Assembly: GCF_028681615.1 (NCBI RefSeq)
Contig: NZ_JAQUHV010000002.1
Location: forward strand, 1 to 64,000
Direction: 5' to 3'
Source of the DNA: Sulfuricurvum sp.
Lineage (GTDB): Bacteria > Campylobacterota > Campylobacteria > Campylobacterales > Sulfurimonadaceae
Length of the DNA stretch: 64,000 bases
The position numbers were made by a program, and so were the translations under genes. The notes beneath the pieces are model-generated. The model was not told the origin of the DNA and ran no database searches. It saw only the letters and a program-made list of their open reading frames with translations. Of the stretch, positions 2,529 to 40,920 are shown piece by piece; positions within the stretch are counted from its first letter, which is position 1; every line of letters begins with the position of its first letter.

Positions 2529-3230
2529 TTGTTACTCTCGCGAGGGCTGGCGGCCCTCACCTTCATCACACTGTTTTCTTTCTCACTCAATGCGGAATAT
2601 TTATATAAAGACGATGTTGTCAATAATCCTAAATTTGCAGAACAAATCAATGCGATCGGTACAGAACTAAAAGCAAAAACAGGTGTTTCTCTTTATCTTG
2701 TTATGACACAAGATGTTGATGAGAATCAAAGCATCGCTGATTTTGAAAAGCAAATTGCTTCACAAGTAGCAGAACCTGCTGTGATTATGACATTTATAGA
2801 GCAGAAGCAGGAAATCGATATCTTAGCTCGTCCCGTCTCTTTATACAAACATTTTAACAAAGCTCAAATCCTTAGCCCTAACGCAACCTTTATCGGTTCT
2901 GTTGTCAGTGCAATTATGTTTGCACGCAGTTACGATGAGGCAAAGGAACTTATTGCTAATCGAGGCGGAACAATCTTGCCAATTTTAGCCGAAAAAACAA
3001 AAGGCAGTGAAACAGTCCAAAAGTATTCGGTTGCGATGTACAACGGATACAGCGATACGGCAGACCAAATTGCCGCAGCGCAGGGGGTTACGCTTAGTTC
3101 TTCTGCCGGAAACGGGAGTCAAAATTTTATTGATCTTATTCGGTTAATATTTTACGGTATCATTCTGTACGGTATCTCACGATACGTATACGGGCGCTTT
3201 TTTCGTCCAAAGAAGGATAATAATGTTTAA
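2529..3230 (+). CDS. TPM-like membrane-anchored protein of unknown function
   Basis: This 233-residue protein starts at TTG 2529 behind a TAAGGG site. It has a signal or anchor helix (about residues 4-20), an extracytoplasmic domain that resembles the TPM fold (an alpha/beta domain reading YLYKDDVVNNP...LKAKTGVSLYLVMT) and a C-terminal helix (about 203-221) followed by a basic tail. Its stop overlaps the fixH start by 8 bases, so it belongs to the cco operon. TPM domains occur in photosystem II repair and in oxidase or secretion contexts; a chaperone-like role in oxidase assembly is only a guess. The fold call is by eye. Confidence 0.6.
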   Translation: MLLSRGLAALTFITLFSFSLNAEYLYKDDVVNNPKFAEQINAIGTELKAKTGVSLYLVMTQDVDENQSIADFEKQIASQVAEPAVIMTFIEQKQEIDILARPVSLYKHFNKAQILSPNATFIGSVVSAIMFARSYDEAKELIANRGGTILPILAEKTKGSETVQKYSVAMYNGYSDTADQIAAAQGVTLSSSAGNGSQNFIDLIRLIFYGIILYGISRYVYGRFFRPKKDNNV

Positions 3231-11552: not shown

Positions 11553-12246
11553 AAATATTTGGGTTAGTGCCCTGATATTGCTTCTTTCGATCCTCTTTTT
11601 CGGATTGAGCGGAACCGATATCTGGGTGCAAAAACATTTTTATAATCCTAGTACCCATCAATGGATCGTGGATACCAACAATCCCGTTCTCAAATTTATT
11701 TTTTATGACGGGATCAAGCGTTTATTGATTATTCTCAATGTGTTGGTACTCATCGGATTGATTGCGTGGTGGAAAAAACCGTTTCTGCTCCCCTATAAAA
11801 GAGGATTGGTAATCGTTGTCTTATCGTCTATTTTTGTCCCTTTGCTTGTCAGCAGTTTGAAAGCGGTGACGAATATTCCATGCCCTAAAAGTTTGGAAAT
11901 TTTTGACGGAACCTATCCGCACACGTGTGTTTGGGAAAAATATCCGAGTGATTTTTGCCAAAAACAGAAACAAAAATGCTGGCCGGCAGGACATGCCAGC
12001 GGTGGATTCGCTCTATTATCGCTTATTTTTTTGTTCCGGACCCGCAAAGCGAAAATCGCCTCTGTCGCTTTGGCTATGGTGATCGGGTGGAGCATGGGAA
12101 GCTATAAGATGTTGATCGGAGATCATTTTCTGAGCCACACGTTTATAACGATGATAATGGCGTGGCTGATTATTTCAATTATTGTTGCAATTCTAAATCG
12201 TATGGAACAAAAAGGTGTGATAGCTCTGCATACTAGAGGTCTTTAA
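11539..12246 (+). CDS. PAP2-family membrane phosphatase, probably acting on lipid A or an isoprenyl phosphate
   Basis: The 235-residue protein has six predicted transmembrane helices and the three PAP2 phosphatase motifs. Motif 1 is KAVTNIPCP around residue 107, with CP instead of the usual RP. Motif 2 is PAGHASGG near residue 150, and motif 3 is GSYKMLIGDHFLSH near residue 185. It overlaps eptA by 14 bases. In Helicobacter pylori a PAP2 enzyme (LpxE) next to EptA removes the lipid A 1-phosphate before phosphoethanolamine is added, and the same pairing suggests a similar job here. An LpxT-like or undecaprenyl pyrophosphatase role cannot be excluded. The loop between motifs 1 and 2 holds four or more Cys residues. 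Confidence 0.75.
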   Translation: MSAVKNIWVSALILLLSILFFGLSGTDIWVQKHFYNPSTHQWIVDTNNPVLKFIFYDGIKRLLIILNVLVLIGLIAWWKKPFLLPYKRGLVIVVLSSIFVPLLVSSLKAVTNIPCPKSLEIFDGTYPHTCVWEKYPSDFCQKQKQKCWPAGHASGGFALLSLIFLFRTRKAKIASVALAMVIGWSMGSYKMLIGDHFLSHTFITMIMAWLIISIIVAILNRMEQKGVIALHTRGL

Positions 12247-22581: not shown

Positions 22582-22675
22582 TTTTAACGCCATCGGAATG
22601 CATCCCGATTGGCTGCGTTAACACTGGGTTTCCCTCAGCGGGAAGCTCACGCACATAAGTGCTTGAAAATCCACT
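22582..22675. repeat. Dispersed structured repeat, copy C (divergent)
   Basis: The sequence opens with ATTTTAACG and a hairpin ATCGG (22592-22596) / CCGAT (22605-22609). A second hairpin TTCCC (22630-22634) / GGGAA (22640-22644) follows. The plan is the same as at 26532-26617 and 59006-59083: TTTTAACG, first stem with an 8-9 base loop, then a second GC-rich stem. The stem sequences differ but remain paired. This copy lacks the 26-base core shared by the other two, so membership is less certain. Confidence 0.4.
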
Positions 22676-22688
22676 AAAAGTGAATTTT

Positions 22689-23174
22689 ATGACTTCATTT
22701 TGCGATCTGTTTCAAACCTCGCCTCAGATGAAGATTCTGGTGGCGACTTCTCATGCCGATAGTCTTATTGAAGAGGTATGTACCTTTTTGGAACCGTTTA
22801 ATGCGACGGTCGATCTTTCCCTTTACCCGGGGGAGCATGATGAGTATTCTTCTGCCGTTATCGGTAAGTGTGATGCGATTAAAGATTTTAGTTCTCCGAT
22901 CCGTTCGGCCACACGTGATTATGAAACCATCATCCTCCAAGATGTTTTACACCTTCATACCTTCCCGCTAAAACTATTACAGCTTGTATACCGTTCTTTG
23001 GAAAACTCCGCTGAGGTTATTATTGTTCAAGAGCGCGGAGTGATGGAGACTTCAGACATCGAAGCTTTATTGGAAAAAGCAGAATTTCGTGCGGCAAATA
23101 CGATCATCGATTTGATAGAGGGAAATGATGTGATTGTAGCTAAAAAGATGCATATGTGGGGTAATGGGCTATGA
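22689..23174 (+). CDS. Hypothetical protein, possibly a degenerate methyltransferase-like domain
   Basis: Starting at ATG 22689, the product is 161 residues and begins MTSFCDLFQTSPQ. It has alternating strands and helices: MKILVATSHADSL, ETIILQDVLHLHTFPLKLLQLVYRSLENSAEVIIV, and a final strand DVIVAKKMHMWGNG. This resembles the second half of a Rossmann-type methyltransferase, but no SAM-binding glycine motif is seen. An in-frame ATG or alternative start 30 bases earlier also exists; the later one lacks a strong ribosome-binding site. The function is unknown. It is followed 36 bases later by the integrase remnant. Confidence 0.55.
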   Translation: MTSFCDLFQTSPQMKILVATSHADSLIEEVCTFLEPFNATVDLSLYPGEHDEYSSAVIGKCDAIKDFSSPIRSATRDYETIILQDVLHLHTFPLKLLQLVYRSLENSAEVIIVQERGVMETSDIEALLEKAEFRAANTIIDLIEGNDVIVAKKMHMWGNGL

Positions 23175-23210
23175 TAAAATTTTAATGCAATGAAATCCGA
23201 AAGGTGTTGT

Positions 23211-23327
23211 ATGGCTGGCTATAAAGGTATCTCCAGAGAAATAATGAAAGATGGCTCGAAAACTATTATGTTCCGCTGGATCAAGGCCCAATTTTTATAT
23301 CACTTGTTTTCATACAAATTTTATTGA
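23211..23327 (+). pseudogene. 5' remnant of a phage-type integrase gene
   Basis: A good ribosome-binding site (AAAGGTG) and ATG at 23211 open a frame reading MAGYKGISREIMKDGSK followed by TIMFRWIK. This is the beginning of the arm-type DNA-binding domain of tyrosine recombinases from this group. After that the similarity ends abruptly and the frame stops at 23325. The remaining 300 or more residues of a recombinase are missing. The 3' part overlaps the end of the convergent Cys-rich gene. I read it as the scar of a deleted mobile element; the match is by eye. Confidence 0.55.
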
Positions 23328-23688
23328 ACTCGTCATACTTATCGCACGTAGTTCGCACAAATAACTTCTTGGCCGGATAGAAAGTACACTTTGTTTGATA
23401 ATGACACCTGCTGAAGAACTCTTCCCAGTGCTGACATTCTTCAATACATTCAAGATTTTTGTATGTATACGTCGTTGTTTCAAACAGACACTTTTTATTA
23501 AAATCGTCCCAATACTGGCAGTCCTTAAGAGCCAAGGCTACACCATCAGTTAACGGTTGACCGCAAGTGACGGTGAGGTCTCCCTGATGGTATTTTTCTC
23601 CCGTTTCGAGAGTGATTTTTTTTGCTTCAACATGACCCGCCAAAAACATCAGCACTGCAATTAAACTTATAAACACATGTCTTTTCAT
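23281..23688 (-). CDS. Secreted Cys-rich protein with three CX9C repeats
   Basis: The 135-residue protein has a signal peptide (about residues 1-22, ending HVEA). The mature part holds nine cysteines, at 42, 57, 67, 81, 85, 95, 101, 115 and 125. Three segments share the pattern C-x-x-[WY]-[DE]-[DE]-F-x-x-x-C: 57-67 (CQYWDDFNKKC), 85-95 (CQHWEEFFSRC) and 115-125 (CDKYDEFNKIC). Each would form a small disulphide-linked loop in the periplasm or outside the cell. No known family is recognised. It lies inside the decayed element, opposite in direction to the integrase remnant. AGGAGATCC precedes the ATG. Confidence 0.7.
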   Translation of the reverse strand: MKRHVFISLIAVLMFLAGHVEAKKITLETGEKYHQGDLTVTCGQPLTDGVALALKDCQYWDDFNKKCLFETTTYTYKNLECIEECQHWEEFFSRCHYQTKCTFYPAKKLFVRTTCDKYDEFNKICMKTSDIKIGP

Positions 23689-23719
23689 ACTTGGATCTCC
23701 TGTTATAATAATTTATTTA

Positions 23720-23905
23720 TTATCTAGATTCTCTGGGATCAATCAGTTTTTTTTTCTCTAAGTTTTTAGCCCCATCATTGACCGTGTCTTTGCTCCATTG
23801 GGCGTTATCAATCGTATCATTTTTTGCACCTTGCCATGTCTCACCACATCCACTAATCATGACTACCACGAAGAGAAGCATTATAAACGTTAAACTCTTT
23901 TTCAT
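23720..23905 (-). CDS. Small lipoprotein, entericidin-like size
   Basis: Starting from the ATG at 23905 the protein is 61 residues, with a lipoprotein signal peptide MKKSLTFIMLLFVVVMISGC whose Cys20 would be lipidated. The mature part is short, polar and charged (TWQGAKNDTIDNAQWSKD then a Lys/Glu stretch), similar in layout to entericidin and related small lipoproteins. An in-frame start 24 codons earlier would place a second hydrophobic segment before the signal peptide, so it is rejected. It lies between the Cys-rich gene and the HTH remnant. Confidence 0.65.
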   Translation of the reverse strand: MKKSLTFIMLLFVVVMISGCGETWQGAKNDTIDNAQWSKDTVNDGAKNLEKKKLIDPRESR

Positions 23906-24010
23906 TTTGAATGAGTAAAAATGTTGTAGCATTGCAAATAACAATACTATACAGTAATTTTTAATTTTTTGAAACATACTAAATCTATTTTTAGAGGCAG
24001 ATTTTATTAA

Positions 24011-24100
24011 CCGTTACCGTATCATCAGAAAGTAACAGGTGGCAAAGTGGATTATGTGGTCGATGAAGTGGAGAAATGGTTTGCCAAATATAGTTTGTGA
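24011..24100 (+). pseudogene. 3' remnant of an excisionase/AlpA-type HTH protein
   Basis: An open frame without a start reads PLPYHQKVTGGKVDYVVDEV then EKWFAKYSL and a TGA stop. A GG-K-x-x-Y-x-x-x-E-V-E-x-W pattern is how the wing and last helix of AlpA- or MerR-type excisionase proteins end. It is preceded by a stop codon in frame, so the N-terminal helix-turn-helix is gone. Together with the integrase remnant at 23211 it marks the two ends of an element that lost its middle. The assignment is by eye on a short piece. Confidence 0.35.
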
Positions 24101-33653: not shown

Positions 33654-34619
33654 GTGTTAATAGATAGTTATGGCAGAACGGTCGATTATTTACGTGTTTC
33701 AGTGACGGAACGGTGTAATTTTCGCTGTCAATACTGCATGCCGGAAAAACCTTTTTCATGGGTTCCAAAAGAAAATTTGCTCAGTTTTGAAGAGTTGTTT
33801 GAATTCATCAAAGTTTCAATAGATGAAGGAATAAAAAAAATTCGTATCACCGGCGGTGAACCGCTGCTTCGAGAAGATCTCGATAAATTCATCAAACTGA
33901 TTTATGATTATAAAAACGATATTGATTTGGCGATGACTACCAACGCATTTTTGCTAAAAGGGTCTGCACAAAAACTTTATGATGCAGGATTGCGTCGTCT
34001 GAATGTGTCGATCGATTCGCTCAAACCGGAGGTTGCCGAAACCATTGCAAAAAAAGATGTACTTCGACAGGTTCTTGAAGGCGTTGAAGAAGCATTGCGC
34101 GTCGGTTTGAAAGTCAAAGTGAATATGGTTCCGATGAAAGGGCTCAATGAGTCCGAAGTTCTCGATGTTTTGGAATACTGCAAAGCCAGAGGGATGGTAG
34201 TCCGGTTTATCGAATATATGGAAAATGTCCATGCCGAAGTAGATATCAAAGGGATGAACAGCATCGAATTACTAGACATAATCGGAAGCCGTTATTCGTA
34301 TGTAGACGAAGGATTTGACGGTCACTCACCGTCGCACTATTATAAACTTGAAGACGGTTATGAGTTCGGGATCATTGAACCGCATAAGGACGATTTTTGT
34401 ACCAAATGCAATCGTATCCGTTTAACGGCTGAGGGGAATTTGATCCCATGTCTCTATTTTGATGAAGCGATGTCGATCCGTGATGCGGTAAGACGCGGAG
34501 ATATCAAAGAAGCGGCATTAGTGCTCAAAGAGGTGATTCGGACGAAGCCGGAAAAAAATCGCTGGAGCGAAGGAGATTCCGAAGTTTCAAGCCGTGCGTT
34601 TTACGAAACCGGGGGGTGA
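33654..34619 (+). CDS. moaA: GTP 3',8-cyclase (molybdenum cofactor)
   Basis: The 321-residue radical SAM enzyme starts the molybdopterin pathway. The N-terminal cluster is CNFRCQYC (Cys21, 25, 28), followed by [13 protein letters not shown]. The C-terminal second cluster is in [19 protein letters not shown]. The start is GTG with CAAGGA upstream; the next in-frame ATG would remove the cluster. The extreme C terminus lacks the usual Gly-Gly tail, ending YETGG instead, which keeps the double glycine. Confidence 0.95.
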
Positions 34620-34620
34620 G

Positions 34621-35379
34621 ATGCTTTATTTAGTAGAACATTTTTACTCCGTTCAGGGTGAGGGTAAATATACGGGCGTTCCGTCTTTGTTTTTTAGATT
34701 TGGCGGCTGCAATCTCAAATGCGAAGGGTTCGGATGCCGCGAGAGTGCACCGGACGGTTCGGAAATTTTGGGATGTGATACGGTTTATGCCGTCGATCGC
34801 AAAGCATTCGGCGAATTGTGGCAGGAGATTGAAGAGCTTCAAACATTGATTTGGATTATGAACGGATACCGTTTGCCCCCTCATGTCGACGTCGTACTGA
34901 CAGGTGGAGAACCGCTGATCTATGCGAATGAGCCGATTTTTGTCGAATTCATCGATTATCTGATCGGTCACGGCCATCGGGTGACATTTGAGACCAATGC
35001 GACGATTGCTCCCGATTTTAAACGTTTTCCTTTTTACAAACAGGCAACCTATGCTCTTTCGGTAAAACTCTCAAACAGCGGTGAACCAATAGAGAAACGG
35101 ATCAAGCCTGAGGTGTATGGGGAAATTATCGCTAACGCAAAAGAGAGTTTTTTTAAATTTACCGTGGATGAACCCTCTCTGGTAAGCCATATCGAATCCG
35201 AAATCGATGAGATCATTGCCCTTCATCCTTATACGCCGGTGTATTGTATGCCGCTCGGAGGCGACAAAGCCCACATCGAAGCGAACTGCGAAGCGGTAAT
35301 CGAGTTTTGCAAGCTGCGCGGATTTATCTATTCGGATCGATTACACATTCGCATCTGGGATCAGAACCACGGGGTATAA
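34621..35379 (+). CDS. queE: 7-carboxy-7-deazaguanine synthase
   Basis: The 252-residue radical SAM enzyme makes the 7-deazaguanine core of queuosine precursors from carboxytetrahydropterin. It has SVQGEGKYTGVPSLFFRFGG, then CNLKCEGFGC (Cys30, 34, 39: spacing CX3CX4C, not the canonical CX3CX2C) and VLTGGEPL. The start at 34621 gives the standard MLYLVEHFYS terminus and follows GGGGGTGAG; an earlier in-frame ATG lies inside moaA. The final codons DQNHGV-stop are duplicated 4.96 kb downstream, just before queD, because an island is inserted here. Confidence 0.9.
   Translation: MLYLVEHFYSVQGEGKYTGVPSLFFRFGGCNLKCEGFGCRESAPDGSEILGCDTVYAVDRKAFGELWQEIEELQTLIWIMNGYRLPPHVDVVLTGGEPLIYANEPIFVEFIDYLIGHGHRVTFETNATIAPDFKRFPFYKQATYALSVKLSNSGEPIEKRIKPEVYGEIIANAKESFFKFTVDEPSLVSHIESEIDEIIALHPYTPVYCMPLGGDKAHIEANCEAVIEFCKLRGFIYSDRLHIRIWDQNHGV
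35350..35379 (+). repeat. attL-like direct repeat (3' end of queE)
   Basis: The last 30 bases of queE match 40306-40335 at 23 positions. The longest shared core is GGGATCA followed by GGGGTATA with only third-codon changes between. An attachment site in the 3' end of a protein-coding gene leaves the gene intact on integration. Confidence 0.65.
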
Positions 35380-35636
35380 TTTTCAAAAGTCCTACATATA
35401 GGGCAAATCCCCCTAAAATAGGCACTTCAAAGACCTTCAAAATTTAAGAAAAATCAATTTAGTTAGTCAAATTTAGTCATTTTTACCCATCTAAAGTGGC
35501 AAAAAAGTGGCAAAAACTAAAAATTTTTCGGATAATTCAGCACTCATTAGAATTGCTATAAGCCATACAATGATTCGTTCATAAGCATAAAAAGATATAA
35601 TTTTTAATATACGCATATTATGAAACGAGAATAGCA
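35380..35636. other. Left non-coding edge of the island
   Basis: This stretch has no gene. It contains CCCTAAAATAGG at 35411-35422 and two AGTGGC arm-type repeats 11 bases apart (35495 and 35506). A TATAAT sequence near 35595, with AT-rich flanks, could be the promoter of the ABC-3C operon, which starts about 40 bases downstream. Confidence 0.5.
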
Positions 35637-36560
35637 ATGGCTTCAATAGAAACATTGACAGATAAATTAAAATTATCTTTTTTTGAAAAAGATGGTAATG
35701 AATTTGAAAAATTCGTTGTAAGTGCATACAAAATATCTTATCCAGAATTAATGGCAGTCAAACCTCAAGGTTCAAAAGGTGATGGTGCTAATGATGGATA
35801 CATGTCAGGTGAGTTGCTTTTACAAGTGTATGCTCCAGAAAAAATTGAAGCAGATACTGCTATTAAAAAAATGAATCATGATTTTGATAGAGCGAAATCA
35901 TATGGATGGAGCTTTAAAGAATGGCATTTTGTACTTAATGATAAATTGAAAAACTTGCCAACAGATATTCATTTGGCTATCGATCAACTGAAAACTGATA
36001 ATCCAGATTACATTATCAAACTGATAGATGGGCAAACTTTTCAGAATAAAATATTAGGTCTATTAAATCATAATAGACTAATGGTGTATATTTTGTTAAA
36101 TGCCGACAAAGATATTAGTGAGTTTGGAGACTTTGAAAAGGTAGAAAAAGTCATAGATGCAATATCTCAGGAAAGTGGAATTAGAAATATTAAAGCTACG
36201 GAATACTTGAATTTTTCAAAAGAAGTCTTTCTCCCTGATGGCATAAAAAAACTTGAAATCAACATAGATGAAGAAAACAATCCCGAATTATTCAAATTTT
36301 TTGGATCACATATTGAAAAGTCTCAAGAAGTTATGGAAGAATTCATTCCTCAGATAGGACTTGACCTATTCACTTCTATTGGAAATTACATTCAACAAGA
36401 TTATAAAAAATATGAACGTATTATGAAACCTGAACAAGCGCTAATTAAAACCTGTGAAGCTATATATTCAAAACTTGAAAATGACAAAAATTTAGAAACA
36501 GCATTATGGGTTGTAATGGCTTATTTCTTTGACATATGTGACATAGGAAAAATAGAATGA
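35637..36560 (+). CDS. ABC-3C system protein with N-terminal nuclease-like domain and C-terminal partner domain
   Basis: The 307-residue protein begins with a domain of about 105 residues containing EFEKFVVSAY, then GDGANDGY (49-55) and LLQVYAPE (61-68). The GD-x-x-x-D-G-[YF] ... Q-V-Y-A-P-E pattern occurs at the N terminus of many bacterial conflict proteins and resembles a restriction-endonuclease-like fold, although the usual catalytic Lys after Gln is replaced by Tyr. The rest is helical, as expected for the C-terminal component of ABC-three-component systems. Its stop overlaps the 77-residue gene (ATGA), which in turn overlaps the ATPase gene, so the three are translationally coupled. 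Effector activity is inferred. Confidence 0.65.
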   Translation: MASIETLTDKLKLSFFEKDGNEFEKFVVSAYKISYPELMAVKPQGSKGDGANDGYMSGELLLQVYAPEKIEADTAIKKMNHDFDRAKSYGWSFKEWHFVLNDKLKNLPTDIHLAIDQLKTDNPDYIIKLIDGQTFQNKILGLLNHNRLMVYILLNADKDISEFGDFEKVEKVIDAISQESGIRNIKATEYLNFSKEVFLPDGIKKLEINIDEENNPELFKFFGSHIEKSQEVMEEFIPQIGLDLFTSIGNYIQQDYKKYERIMKPEQALIKTCEAIYSKLENDKNLETALWVVMAYFFDICDIGKIE

Positions 36561-36790
36561 TAATGGGCAATAAAATTATCAAAGTTGAAGATGCCTTTAT
36601 CACAATAGGAGGATATATTTTATCAATCCTAAAAAATAAAGAACTTCAAGTGGATACTTTGTATTCTAAATTTTTAGAAATCTATCCCAAACATATTAGT
36701 TTTGAACAATTTACATATGCAATAGATTTTTTATTTATGATTAATAAAATCAGAATAAAACATGATGATGTTTTGGAGATTGTATTATGA
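36557..36790 (+). CDS. ABC-3C middle component, MC6-like
   Basis: The 77-residue protein reads as a small winged-helix-like unit: NKIIKVEDAFITIGGYILSI, LYSKFLEIYPKHISFEQFTY and AIDFLFMINKIRIKHDDVLE. This pattern (conserved Ile/Leu-rich helix, then FxxxxxALDFLYxLxxIxxxxxxL) matches middle components of ABC-three-component systems as I recall them, type 6. It overlaps both neighbours by 4 bases. The role would be to link the effector to the ATPase. A database profile is needed to fix the subtype. Confidence 0.6.
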   Translation: MIMGNKIIKVEDAFITIGGYILSILKNKELQVDTLYSKFLEIYPKHISFEQFTYAIDFLFMINKIRIKHDDVLEIVL

Positions 36791-38436
36791 GACTGATTCA
36801 ATTAAGTAGTAGCGATCCAAGATTTAAAGCTATAACTTTTACACCCGGACTAAATATAATAGTCGGTGAAAAGGTTTTAACTGACGATAAGAAGAAAACA
36901 TCTAATGGGATTGGTAAAAGCTTATCATTAATTTGTATTGATTTTTTGTTGGGAAAAGGCAGTCAAAGTAAAGAAATCAAAAAACTAAAAGAAGTTTTGG
37001 AAAAAGAAAAAATAATTTTAACTCTCAATTTTGAACATAATGGCGTATTTTATGAAGTTTCAAGAAGTCATAATAAAATATGGCTGAATGATGTTGAATA
37101 TAAAAAAGATGGTGACTACACTGATTTTTTAAACACATTGGTAAAAGAAGATACTTTTAGAAATATTTTTTGTCGATTTTTTAGAACTGATAAAAAGAGT
37201 TATCAAGACGCCATATCTCAAGTTAGTCAAGAAGCACCATATAGTAATAATAAAATTAATGCATATTTATTAGGTTTAAATTTATCATATTTAGAAAAGA
37301 AAAAAGAGTTAAAAGTAAAAAATGATAGGTTAAAAGTTTTAATCAAAGAACTTAATGCTATTGAAAAAACTATCAATAAAGAAAAAGAATTTGAACTTGG
37401 CGAAAGATTACAAAAAATTGAAAAAGATTTAGAAAATTTTGAAATAGCAGAAGATTTTAATGATCTAAAAAAAGAAGCAGATAGCTTAACTGCCGAACTT
37501 CAAAAAGTTAGAAATCTTATTGCATTCAATAATAGGGAAATACGAAATAAAAAAAATATAATTAGCGTAAATCAGCAAACTAATATTGATATAGACAAAC
37601 TTACTAGTATGTATGAAGAAGCAAAGTTCTTCTTAGGAGAAGATGTTTTAGCTCATATTCAAGCCGTAAAAGGATTTCATGAAACTCTTTTTAGCAATAG
37701 AAGAACTAAAGCCATCAACGACATTGCAGTTCATGAAAAAGAAGTAATAGCACTTGAAAGTCAATCAGTTGCTATTGATTTAAGAAGAAGTGAGATTTTC
37801 AAGTATCTTGAGAATAAAGGTGCATTAGAAGAATATCATTCGCTAAACAAAGAAAAAGATAAAATAAAATTGACCCTTGAAGAAATTCAAAGAAATCAAA
37901 AAACACTAAAAGCTTTTAAAAAAGAACAAGCAGATATTAAAATTGAAATAGATCAATTTAAAAGAGATCTTATTGAACTTGAAGACAAAATCAAAGATAG
38001 AATAGAGTTTTTAGGAAAAAGTTTTAGGGAAATATCAGAAGAACATTATGATGATAAGCCAGGGCTTTTAGAAATCAAAATTAATGAAGATTTTAAGACC
38101 GAAAAGCTTTACAACATAGAAGCGAATATCAAAGGAGATGGAAGTGACGGCATTAATGAAATGAAAATATTCATTTATGATATGCTCATTTATAAATTAA
38201 ATCCAACTCTTATTTGCTTAGTAGGACATGATAATAGGCTTTTTGATATGGTTGATGAAAGGCAAATAGCAAAAGCATTTCACTATGTTTCCAATAATTT
38301 GTCTCAATATATTTGTTCTATTAGTGATACGAAGATAGATGAAGTGAAAAAACATATATCATTAAATTGGGACGAAGTGATAAAAAGGAATCTAAGTGAA
38401 AAAGATAAACTTTTTGGTTTTGACTTTGATCAATAA
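36787..38436 (+). CDS. DUF2326 ABC-type ATPase of an ABC-3C system
   Basis: The 549-residue protein is SMC/RecN-like. It starts FTPGLNIIVGEK with a Walker A variant TSNGIGKS (38-45), then SLICIDFLLGKG. A long central coiled coil rich in Lys and Glu runs from about 160 to 400. The C-terminal DUF2326 region has the Walker B/D-loop segment CLVGHDNRLFDMVDERQ, with GHD at 480-482, and ends with CSISDTKID. In this family the Walker B acidic residue is carried by the HD motif. ATP-driven sensing of unusual DNA or replication products is the proposed role for the family; for this protein it is inference. Confidence 0.82.
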   Translation: MRLIQLSSSDPRFKAITFTPGLNIIVGEKVLTDDKKKTSNGIGKSLSLICIDFLLGKGSQSKEIKKLKEVLEKEKIILTLNFEHNGVFYEVSRSHNKIWLNDVEYKKDGDYTDFLNTLVKEDTFRNIFCRFFRTDKKSYQDAISQVSQEAPYSNNKINAYLLGLNLSYLEKKKELKVKNDRLKVLIKELNAIEKTINKEKEFELGERLQKIEKDLENFEIAEDFNDLKKEADSLTAELQKVRNLIAFNNREIRNKKNIISVNQQTNIDIDKLTSMYEEAKFFLGEDVLAHIQAVKGFHETLFSNRRTKAINDIAVHEKEVIALESQSVAIDLRRSEIFKYLENKGALEEYHSLNKEKDKIKLTLEEIQRNQKTLKAFKKEQADIKIEIDQFKRDLIELEDKIKDRIEFLGKSFREISEEHYDDKPGLLEIKINEDFKTEKLYNIEANIKGDGSDGINEMKIFIYDMLIYKLNPTLICLVGHDNRLFDMVDERQIAKAFHYVSNNLSQYICSISDTKIDEVKKHISLNWDEVIKRNLSEKDKLFGFDFDQ

Positions 38437-38487
38437 GATTTACAACAAAGAAAAAATCAAATAACCTTTTCAGTCAAATAATAAAAG

Positions 38488-39759
38488 TTATACTGCTTCA
38501 TGACTTATTTTTCGTAGGTTTTCTACATAATCATCAATAATGATATCAGGAACTTTTACACCATTAACTTCTTTTAAAGTTGATAGCTTTTCAATAATTA
38601 ATTCTATGCTAAACGATGCAATTACTAAAAGTGCAATTATTTGATGCATAGCCATGGATTGGAATTGTTGATCTTTTTTTACTTCGTTAAAATGTATTTT
38701 GGCAATATCAAATTCGTGAATATCTTTATTAGAAGCACCGTTTGAATGTAATGAATTTCTCATATCAATTATTTTCAAAAACATATCAATTAGGTTAATA
38801 TTTTGTTTGTTTTCTTGCTTGAAAAGTTCTATATATGCAGGAGATGACTCTTTACATCTGTGCATTATCTCTTTGGAAATTATTACAAAATCGATAGAGT
38901 GATTGATATCTAATTCATTAAAAATACGAGCTATATATTCTTGTTTTTTGGTAATTTTCTTTTTTCCTATGCTCTCATCAGTCATTTTAAAAGTTTTAAT
39001 AATTACACTTAAAAAATGTTCGAAATTAAAATAAATTTCATTTAATACACTGAGTCTATACTGCACTTCTTTTTGTATAAATATTATGTCGATAGTTTCT
39101 TTTATTGTATAAGAAAAATTGGTAATACTATCTAATAATTGATTTTCAATATTATTCATGTTTAATTTATAATCTTGATATTTATTCATAGTAGTAAGTT
39201 CTGTTCTGCCGAAAGTTGTTCTTCGAATATCATTACCTTTAAAGTTATATACATTTTGATGCACAGGAGAGCGGTATGAAAATTCATGTAATAAAAACAA
39301 CATTTCATATTGAGGTATATTGTTATGACCAATTAGAAAAGAAGTTTTTGTATGGTCTATTATCTCATCTAAAATATATTCATTTAATAGTTTTCTAGTA
39401 TTAATATACTGTTCTTGTGAAAAAAAGCCATTGTGGTATTGTTCGGTTAAAGTTTGTAAAAATTGTTTTAATCCATAATCCAGTTCTTTCATATGAAGTA
39501 TATTATGCTCTCTAGCATAAAAGTGTCCGATGATTTTTAGTTCCCCGATTATTTTTGTCATAAATAATGAAGTTCTTAAATCTTGATGAGGTTTAGTTGT
39601 AGTTTGTCTATGAACATTTACTTGAAGTGGCATGCCCATATGATCTTCTAATATTTTTAAAGTTCCTTCACAATATGTATCAATGATTTCAATCGGGGAT
39701 AAAGACAATAACCATTGTTTTTGTTCATCATTGATTTCTATAATTGGATCAGTTTTCAA
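38488..39759 (-). CDS. Unknown 423-residue protein with HEPN-like RNxxH motif
   Basis: The protein is almost wholly helical with no transmembrane segment or signal peptide until one hydrophobic helix near 372-388 (IIALLVIASFSIELII). MRNSLHSNG at 333-341 (Arg334, His338) resembles the RN-x-x-(x)-H motif of HEPN ribonucleases, although the spacing is one residue shorter than the usual Rx4-6H. The start is TTG with AGGA 8 bases upstream. It is convergent to the ABC-3C operon, so it may be a separate cargo gene. No family is recognised. Confidence 0.7.
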   Translation of the reverse strand: MKTDPIIEINDEQKQWLLSLSPIEIIDTYCEGTLKILEDHMGMPLQVNVHRQTTTKPHQDLRTSLFMTKIIGELKIIGHFYAREHNILHMKELDYGLKQFLQTLTEQYHNGFFSQEQYINTRKLLNEYILDEIIDHTKTSFLIGHNNIPQYEMLFLLHEFSYRSPVHQNVYNFKGNDIRRTTFGRTELTTMNKYQDYKLNMNNIENQLLDSITNFSYTIKETIDIIFIQKEVQYRLSVLNEIYFNFEHFLSVIIKTFKMTDESIGKKKITKKQEYIARIFNELDINHSIDFVIISKEIMHRCKESSPAYIELFKQENKQNINLIDMFLKIIDMRNSLHSNGASNKDIHEFDIAKIHFNEVKKDQQFQSMAMHQIIALLVIASFSIELIIEKLSTLKEVNGVKVPDIIIDDYVENLRKISHEAV

Positions 39760-40338
39760 TAGGATTTCCTAAACTATATTTATTTTAATGATTATAGATA
39801 GAAATTCTTTATTTTGGGATGGCTTTAACGAGTGATAATATTCTAAACTTTGGAATAGTGATAGACTGGTAGAAAATTTTGTCTAAGCAAAGTATATATT
39901 AAATGATAAAACAAGCTCAAAGGAAGAAGCTATTAGACTTCTATTTTAAATACCAGCATTCGGAATACAGATGCGAGTGTTCCTACATTGAATAATATAT
40001 GTCGGCATAAAAGTGGCAAAAAAACATAGTTATACCCTTTGAAAGTCCGTAAAATAGGGTGTTTAATTTTTATATCCGTATCTGGGCATGAAATCATAGT
40101 ATTCAAAATGGATAAAAGGTAGCAAAAAGTGGCAAAAAGTGGCACAATTTTTTAATAGCACCTTTAAAAACCCTAAAATAGGTAGTTTATGATAAATTTC
40201 CGTATCTGGGTTATGAATGCGTATGTTAAAGAGTGGCAAAAAAGTGGCATATTTTTCCCACTGTTTTTACAAATCCCTAATACAGGTGGTTTCAAGGGTG
40301 AAGTGCCTATCAGGGATCAAAATCATGGGGTATAGTTT
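39760..40338. other. Right non-coding edge of the island with att/arm-site array
   Basis: About 580 bases without a convincing gene. From 40012 to 40335 it holds three units in the same order: AGTGGC arm repeats (40012; 40128 and 40138; 40232 and 40243), CCCTAAAATAGG or close variant (40047, 40171, 40275), and a queE-like CGTATCTGGG or CCTATCAGGG core (40077, 40201, 40306). The 39760-40010 part is AT-rich with a 30-codon open frame of no known type. Confidence 0.6.
40012..40335 (+). repeat. Three tandem att/arm-site units
   Basis: Spacing from the last CCCTAAAATAGG to the att core is 29, 29 and 31 bases in the three units, and from arm repeat to CCCTAAAATAGG it is 35-43. The unit length is about 105-125 bases. 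Only the last unit keeps the full queE 3' end (DQNHGV-stop). The order and spacing point to repeated integration or an expanded attR. Confidence 0.6.
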
Positions 40339-40920
40339 ATGATAATCCGAAAACTTTTTAAATTTGAAAACGCCCATATCGTTCGCGGATGCTCTACACA
40401 GCGGTGCCGTGCTTCGATTCATGGCCATTCATACAAAGTCGAAGTGCTGTTCGAATCCAAATATCTCGATCACGGTCAGATGGTATACGATTTCGGTCTA
40501 ATGAAGCAGGGGATGAAAGAGCTGATTGACAGTTTTGATCATGCGGTCGCTATCTGGGACGGTGATGATGGCGAGTATATCGAAGCGATGAAAGAACATT
40601 CCAATCGATGGGTACTTCTTCCTGTGTCCCCTTCATGCGAACAGTTTAGCCGCGTGATATTTTTGATGCTGGATCGTCTGTTGTCTTCCACCGACATGAT
40701 CAACGGAGAGCAGGAAGTGAGACTTCACAGTATTATCGTGCACGAAACCGAAACGGGGTATGCGCAATGTTTTGAAGAAGATGCCTATTCGGAGCGGATG
40801 GGAGTCATACCGTTGGAATCGATCCTGTTTAGTGATGAAGTCCGCCAAGGGTGGAGCGATCCTCGGTTGTGGCAGAAAATATTAGCCGGTGAAACGTTTT
40901 TAAATCCTCAAACTGTTTAG
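40339..40920 (+). CDS. queD: 6-carboxytetrahydropterin synthase QueD
   Basis: The 193-residue protein has the QueD/PTPS features FENAHIVRGCSTQRCRASIH, GHSYKVEV (zinc His ligands), and MVYDFGLMKQGMKELIDSFDHAV. The catalytic Cys lies in the GCSTQRC segment. It makes carboxytetrahydropterin, the substrate of QueE. The protein is longer than the 120-residue E. coli enzyme, with an extra C-terminal part after HETETGYA. Before the island inserted, queE and queD would have been adjacent or nearly overlapping (GGGGTATAG then TTTATG). Confidence 0.9.
   Translation: MIIRKLFKFENAHIVRGCSTQRCRASIHGHSYKVEVLFESKYLDHGQMVYDFGLMKQGMKELIDSFDHAVAIWDGDDGEYIEAMKEHSNRWVLLPVSPSCEQFSRVIFLMLDRLLSSTDMINGEQEVRLHSIIVHETETGYAQCFEEDAYSERMGVIPLESILFSDEVRQGWSDPRLWQKILAGETFLNPQTV

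Follow-up and report, generated by a model that had tools for sequence, protein, structure and literature searches.

A phage-defence island at the 3' end of queE in Sulfuricurvum with three homologous att-like units at its right end

The 64,000-nt stretch analysed here (the window) belongs to a Sulfuricurvum genome of 2.66 Mb and contains a low-GC island of 4.95 kb, which sits in the 3' end of queE and carries phage-defence genes. The island spans 35350-40335 and is flanked on the left by queE (34594-35379, + strand), whose product, 7-carboxy-7-deazaguanine synthase, had its best matches to NCBIfam QueE models below the cut-off, and on the right by queD (40339-40920, + strand; Pfam PTPS, 1.2e-23). 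The GC content was 25-28% over most of the island compared with ~43% around it. Among 41 genomes of the genus Sulfuricurvum, searched with one genome per species, queE was present in 38, and 23 of the 41 had a near-empty site, at which queD lies directly 3' of queE with a gap of ~40-120 nt. At these 23 sites the 3' terminus of queE is CGTATCTGGGATCAAAATCATGGGGTATAA with variants. Because the near-empty sites end in this sequence with queD close by, we delimited the island to 35350-40335 and concluded that its left end restores the final codons of queE, the 3' end of the gene being the target and restored at attL. Other, unrelated inserts were found in the queE-queD gap of some relatives (L047, L052, L053, L054, L030 and L050); they comprise toxin-antitoxin-like pairs, receptor genes and unknown ORFs and are devoid of paired arm repeats.

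The cargo of the window island consists of four genes. A 77-aa protein (36557-36790, + strand) was assigned to ABC-3C middle component 6 (Pfam MC6, E 3e-16), and the Rad50/SMC-like ATPase encoded downstream (36787-38436, + strand) matched Pfam DUF2326 with 1.5e-25 and PADLOC PDC-M68B with 6.7e-75. A middle component and a DUF2326-type ATPase thus share one operon, which defines an ABC-three-component (ABC-3C) system. The 307-aa protein encoded at 35637-36560 (+ strand) had no family match and is, judged by its position, the likely effector of the operon. The 423-aa protein of the minus strand (38488-39759) had no match in Pfam, NCBIfam, PADLOC or PHROGs and only sub-threshold matches in the PDB; it is a candidate for a new defence gene. 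Family searches gave no recombinase match among the cargo ORFs and no transfer genes among the four genes, two of which had no match of any kind. Between the cargo and the right end lies TCAAAGGAAGAAGCTATTA (39917-39935, + strand), which encodes SKEEAI in one frame and is identical in four queE islands despite diverged surroundings. A 69-nt DNA search yielded strong matches in these four islands only among 228 family genomes, and the element may be a remnant or a cis element. That the remnant SKEEAIKLLF is an integrase 3' terminus was considered and rejected: the integrase of the related island in genome G058 (see below) and its relatives is located at the left end and has a different C-terminal end.

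The left end of the island is composed of the attL core CGCATCTGGGATCAGAACCACGGGGTATAA (35350-35379), the same segment that closes queE beside queD at the 23 near-empty sites, the elements CCTACATATAGG and CCCTAAAATAGG (35391-35422), which are aligned across six islands, and a pair of arm repeats, AAAGTGGCAAAAAAGTGGCA (35493-35512), all on the + strand. Comparison of both ends with the near-empty sites showed that the window island has kept attL as well as attR, and arm repeats are found beside the core at both ends. Every attL and attR core read had GGGATCARAA in common. Crossover most likely occurs inside this segment, because the bases to its right in attL and to its left in attR are island-specific in several islands.

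According to the original prediction, the right edge of the island holds three att/arm-site units. Three homologous repeat units are indeed present within 39990-40335, each with AGTGGCA arm repeats, then CCTAAAATAGG, then a queE-like core. The window contains six copies of AAAGTGGCA compared with 0.62 expected, a number reached in none of 100 shuffles; four copies lie in the interval 40012-40335 and two at the opposite end of the island (35493-35512). CCCTAAAATAGG occurs once per unit with up to two mismatches, at 40047, 40171 and 40275, and an exact copy is located at the left end at 35411. When the 95-nt units W1, W2 and W3 were aligned in pairs, the z-scores against dinucleotide shuffles were 6.5 (W1-W2), 7.7 (W2-W3) and 5.7 (W1-W3), none of 300 shuffles scoring as well, and the best ungapped pair of copies extends over 48 nt with 75% identity. 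The predicted spacings of 29, 29 and 31 are correct when measured from the start of CCTAAAATAGG to the start of the core. Arms were present in all units as expected, in numbers that had to be revised, and two kinds of queE-like core occur, CGTATCTGGG (units 1 and 2) and CCTATCAGGGATCAAAATCATGGGGTATAG (unit 3). Unit 1 (40009-40086, + strand) is of the internal class with one good arm, CCGTAAAATAGG and the core ATATCCGTATCTGGG. Unit 2 (40116-40210, + strand), also internal, consists of three arms (two good, one degenerate), CCCTAAAATAGG and the core TTTCCGTATCTGGG. Unit 3 (40230-40335, + strand) is of the terminal class with two arms, CCCTAATACAGG and the attR core CCTATCAGGGATCAAAATCATGGGGTATAG; it is the true right end and the only one of the three that forms an island-chromosome junction. 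Among the right-end units the crossover sequence GGGATCARAA is confined to the terminal unit and absent from the internal cores. Hairpins at the internal cores were not clearly stronger than in shuffled sequences.

Islands at the queE site were found in six of the 41 genus genomes, i.e. in the window genome, G013, G020, G027, G031 and G032, the left ends of the latter five being homologous to that of the window island and located at the same position. A sequence model built from the six left ends (R1) scored 118-135 bits on these, 66 bits on G058, a genome of another genus, and at most 26 bits on the rest. The cargo differs between islands and is mostly defence: ABC-3C (MC6 and DUF2326 ATPase) in the window, a metallophosphatase-nSTAND protein (PDC-S60) in G020, LeoA and LeoBC in G027, PDC-M11A in G031, and AbiD with a SIR2 protein in G032; the G013 island, cut by a contig end, encodes an unknown protein. 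No integrase ORF was recognised in the five complete islands (window, G020, G027, G031 and G032). The end arms agree between both ends of each island and differ among islands, with AGTGGCA in the window, AGTGGGA in G020, G027 and G032, and AGTGTCA in G031. This agreement would be consistent with a single protein recognising both ends. The non-core left ends of the window and G031 islands were 85.7% identical, while queE was 75.6% identical over 160 nt compared; for G027 and G013 the corresponding values were 84.9% and 75.8%. Left ends that are about 10 percentage points closer than the host queE in two pairs suggest that the islands moved horizontally between species.

The relative in G058, from a neighbouring genus, has a homologous left end at queE, in which the homologous arm pair directly precedes the ATG of a tyrosine integrase of 409 aa (PF00589 and PHROG integrase; start ~40 nt past the arms), followed by an FtsK-like gene; the contig stops before the right end of the island. 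Related integrases of the family likewise have paired arms just 5' of the ATG with a sequence that varies by integrase (GTGTATA, GTACATA, GTTGTATA). An order-wide search added three more relatives with different arms, none of which is at queE as judged from the upstream sequence read. In the search of 228 family genomes an integrase of the G058 type had no match in any of the six genomes with queE islands. Within the genus no present helper integrase associated with AGTGG arms turned up, and the genomes searched gave none with AGTGGCA arms. In IMG/VR neither the attR core of the queE islands had a match nor was a relative of the G058 integrase confirmed, and the queE-island left end had no match in plasmids. 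The sole double-arm match in IMG/VR, contig L121, carries AAAGTGGGAAAAAAGTGGGAAAA directly after the stop codon of an integrase and near a tuf gene (~11736-11765, reverse complement). The contig is unrelated and was rejected as kin; arms next to an integrase are nevertheless supportive of an arm function.

Both ends were readable in four islands of the same integrase class at a gene ending in KMHMWGNGL. The right end of each is a single unit, two arms followed by CCTAAAATAGG and the core, and thus one unit is the normal state, as had been expected for a single insertion. Separately, the window contains a decayed second island of this integrase class at 23175-24100, 3' of a gene ending in KMHMWGNGL (22659-23174). 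Its remains are the relic of an integrase start, MAGYKGISREIMKDGSKTIMFR, at 23211 and, at 23960-24082, the tail of an HTH_17/excisionase-like gene (tblastn 5.7e-13).

At queE the number of right-end units varies between species, again as predicted, with three in the window, two each in G020 and G031, and one each in G027 and G032. A terminal unit like unit 3 is present in G020, G027 and G031 and, more diverged, in G032. Internal units were closer across species than to their neighbours in the same array: G020_1 and G031_1 were 75% identical compared with 63% for G020_1 and G020_2 and 56% for G031_1 and G031_2. In a tree of the 95-nt units, which is weak and has support of 86/99 for the key branch, W1, W2, G020_1 and G031_1 fell on one side of that branch. 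These four internal units have all kept the core CGTATYTGGG. Because internal and terminal classes are common to several species, the two-unit right end is probably older than the divergence of these islands and travels with the element; the internal class was present before the islands of three species split from their ancestor. An additional internal unit distinguishes the window island from those of G020 and G031; since the divergence between W1 and W2 is about the same as that of either from G020_1, this extra copy is not recent. The arms of the internal units match the end arms in the window and G031 islands. In G020 they have diverged from the island's own end arms, which favours decay.

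The same arms at the left end and the recurrence of the layout across species bear out the assignment of the repeats as att/arm-site units of an island in queE. We consider it probable that the window island is a non-autonomous element resembling a cis-mobilizable element (CIME) with one true attR and two old, diverged internal copies. Each unit is laid out as one right arm of an integrase, consisting of arm-binding repeats, a CCTA-N-TAGG element and a core site. Site-specific recombination of the tyrosine-recombinase type would have brought the island into the 3' end of queE, and its insertion and any renewed movement would proceed only with an integrase supplied in trans, e.g. by an autonomous relative like that in G058. 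The internal units are probably old copies of the right end that arose by accretion or local duplication and were carried along afterwards. Where their arms match, in the islands of the window and G031, they may still be bound by integrase; lacking the crossover segment, they should not recombine with queE. The island ends would then serve as a frame for the exchange of defence cargo. Mobility of the queE islands is what we infer from these sequence comparisons. No excision, circular form or transfer was seen, and since an integrase for AGTGGCA arms was not found either, the islands could be fixed relics that remained after loss of the integrase.

CIMEs have kept attL and attR and lost the genes for integration and transfer, and they depend on the recombinase of another element for movement (PMC5704250). 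The window island resembles them in having attL and attR but neither an integrase nor transfer genes, the integrase class being absent from the genome. On sequence grounds it would qualify as a CIME, apart from descent from an ICE or IME and mobilisation. With respect to descent, the G058 relative comprises an integrase and an FtsK-like gene as far as the contig reads. In contrast to CIMEs as described, the queE islands of several species have their ends and site in common and differ in defence cargo; in the window, moreover, extra att-like units with no element bodies between them are present at the right end.

One proposal of the original prediction was that successive integrations at the same site each left an att remnant. 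In this reading, each unit would be the right end of a separate element that inserted at queE and lost its body afterwards, through tandem accretion and subsequent deletion. Islands and decayed CIMEs are well known to accrete at a single att site (PMC5704250), the host-like core of unit 1 is followed by GAAATCATAGTAT, which resembles the end of queE, and the internal cores match the host queE across 10-15 nt. However, the sequence between the units contains no left-end or body remnant. Intact or decayed bodies between att sites are expected from tandem accretion (PMC5704250), and because nothing is found there this is not accretion in the strict sense. In addition, the internal and terminal classes common to several species speak against repeated integration at this very locus. 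We regard this explanation as unlikely; an old, ancestral accretion is possible, and a history local to the window strain is disfavoured.

Also unlikely in our view is a functional multi-site right arm, in which extra integrase-binding sites would be retained to tune the direction or efficiency of recombination. The match of internal and end arms in the window and G031 and the conservation of CGTATYTGGG in four out of four internal units argue for it, while the diverged internal arms of G020 and the single units of G027, G032 and the four integrase-bearing relatives argue against it. An expanded landing array that draws in further elements, the second proposal of the original prediction, is very improbable: several queE-like cores do adjoin one another, but the internal ones are devoid of GGGATCARAA and no internal unit was interrupted by an insertion in any genome read. 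Finally, a plain AT-rich low-complexity repeat without att function, suggested by the AT-rich region with its A-runs, is refuted by the shuffle controls, the layout recurring at both island ends in several species and the integrase genes nearby.

The preferred reading, a CIME-like island with one true attR, has its nearest published parallel among those we found in the ssrA islands of Dehalococcoides, likewise a set of islands at one gene end. These have attachment repeats, and 15 of them are without an integration module; the authors of that study suggest that they may be cis-mobilizable elements (PMC3146451). They belong to a serine-recombinase system with whole islands between the repeats, whereas the queE islands are of the tyrosine recombinase class and the extra units lie ~110 nt apart with nothing between. 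The integrase-bearing islands of the family (G058 at queE; G019, G117 and G180 at the KMHMWGNGL gene) share with the window island the order of core, CCTA-TAGG element and paired arms, and the G058 left end is homologous to that of the window island. Unlike the window island, they encode an integrase that follows the left arms directly; in some the right end has an HTH_17/excisionase-like gene, and in the four read at both ends there is one right unit instead of three.

Integration hotspots are known to accumulate defence genes, mostly within elements that encode an integrase themselves. Small islands that share their ends, lack an integrase and nearly all differ in their defence system would show shuffling of defence without a mobility gene. 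Tentatively, such integrase-less cassettes might spread between species via the integrases of passing islands, with the arm sequence as a code that pairs integrase and cassette and the internal units as extra binding sites or points of cargo exchange. TIGER/Islander requires an integrase to call an island, and integrase-dependent finders of this kind would miss the queE islands (PMC12424338). In the literature searched, of which the coverage is incomplete, we found no published description of them.

Two further occurrences of related motifs were observed. A CCCTAAAAATAGGG-like motif is located mid-locus between ruvC-like and dnaA-like genes, named from reading their translations alone, in several genomes of the genus (L062, L064, L066 and L070) and is possibly an origin-linked site that shares the motif with the islands. 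In L067 (G025:C58, ~3084-3111) a 3' end resembling that of a tRNA (CGCCACCA) comes after CCCTAAAAATAGGC, which may mark the right end of a related island inserted at a tRNA gene.
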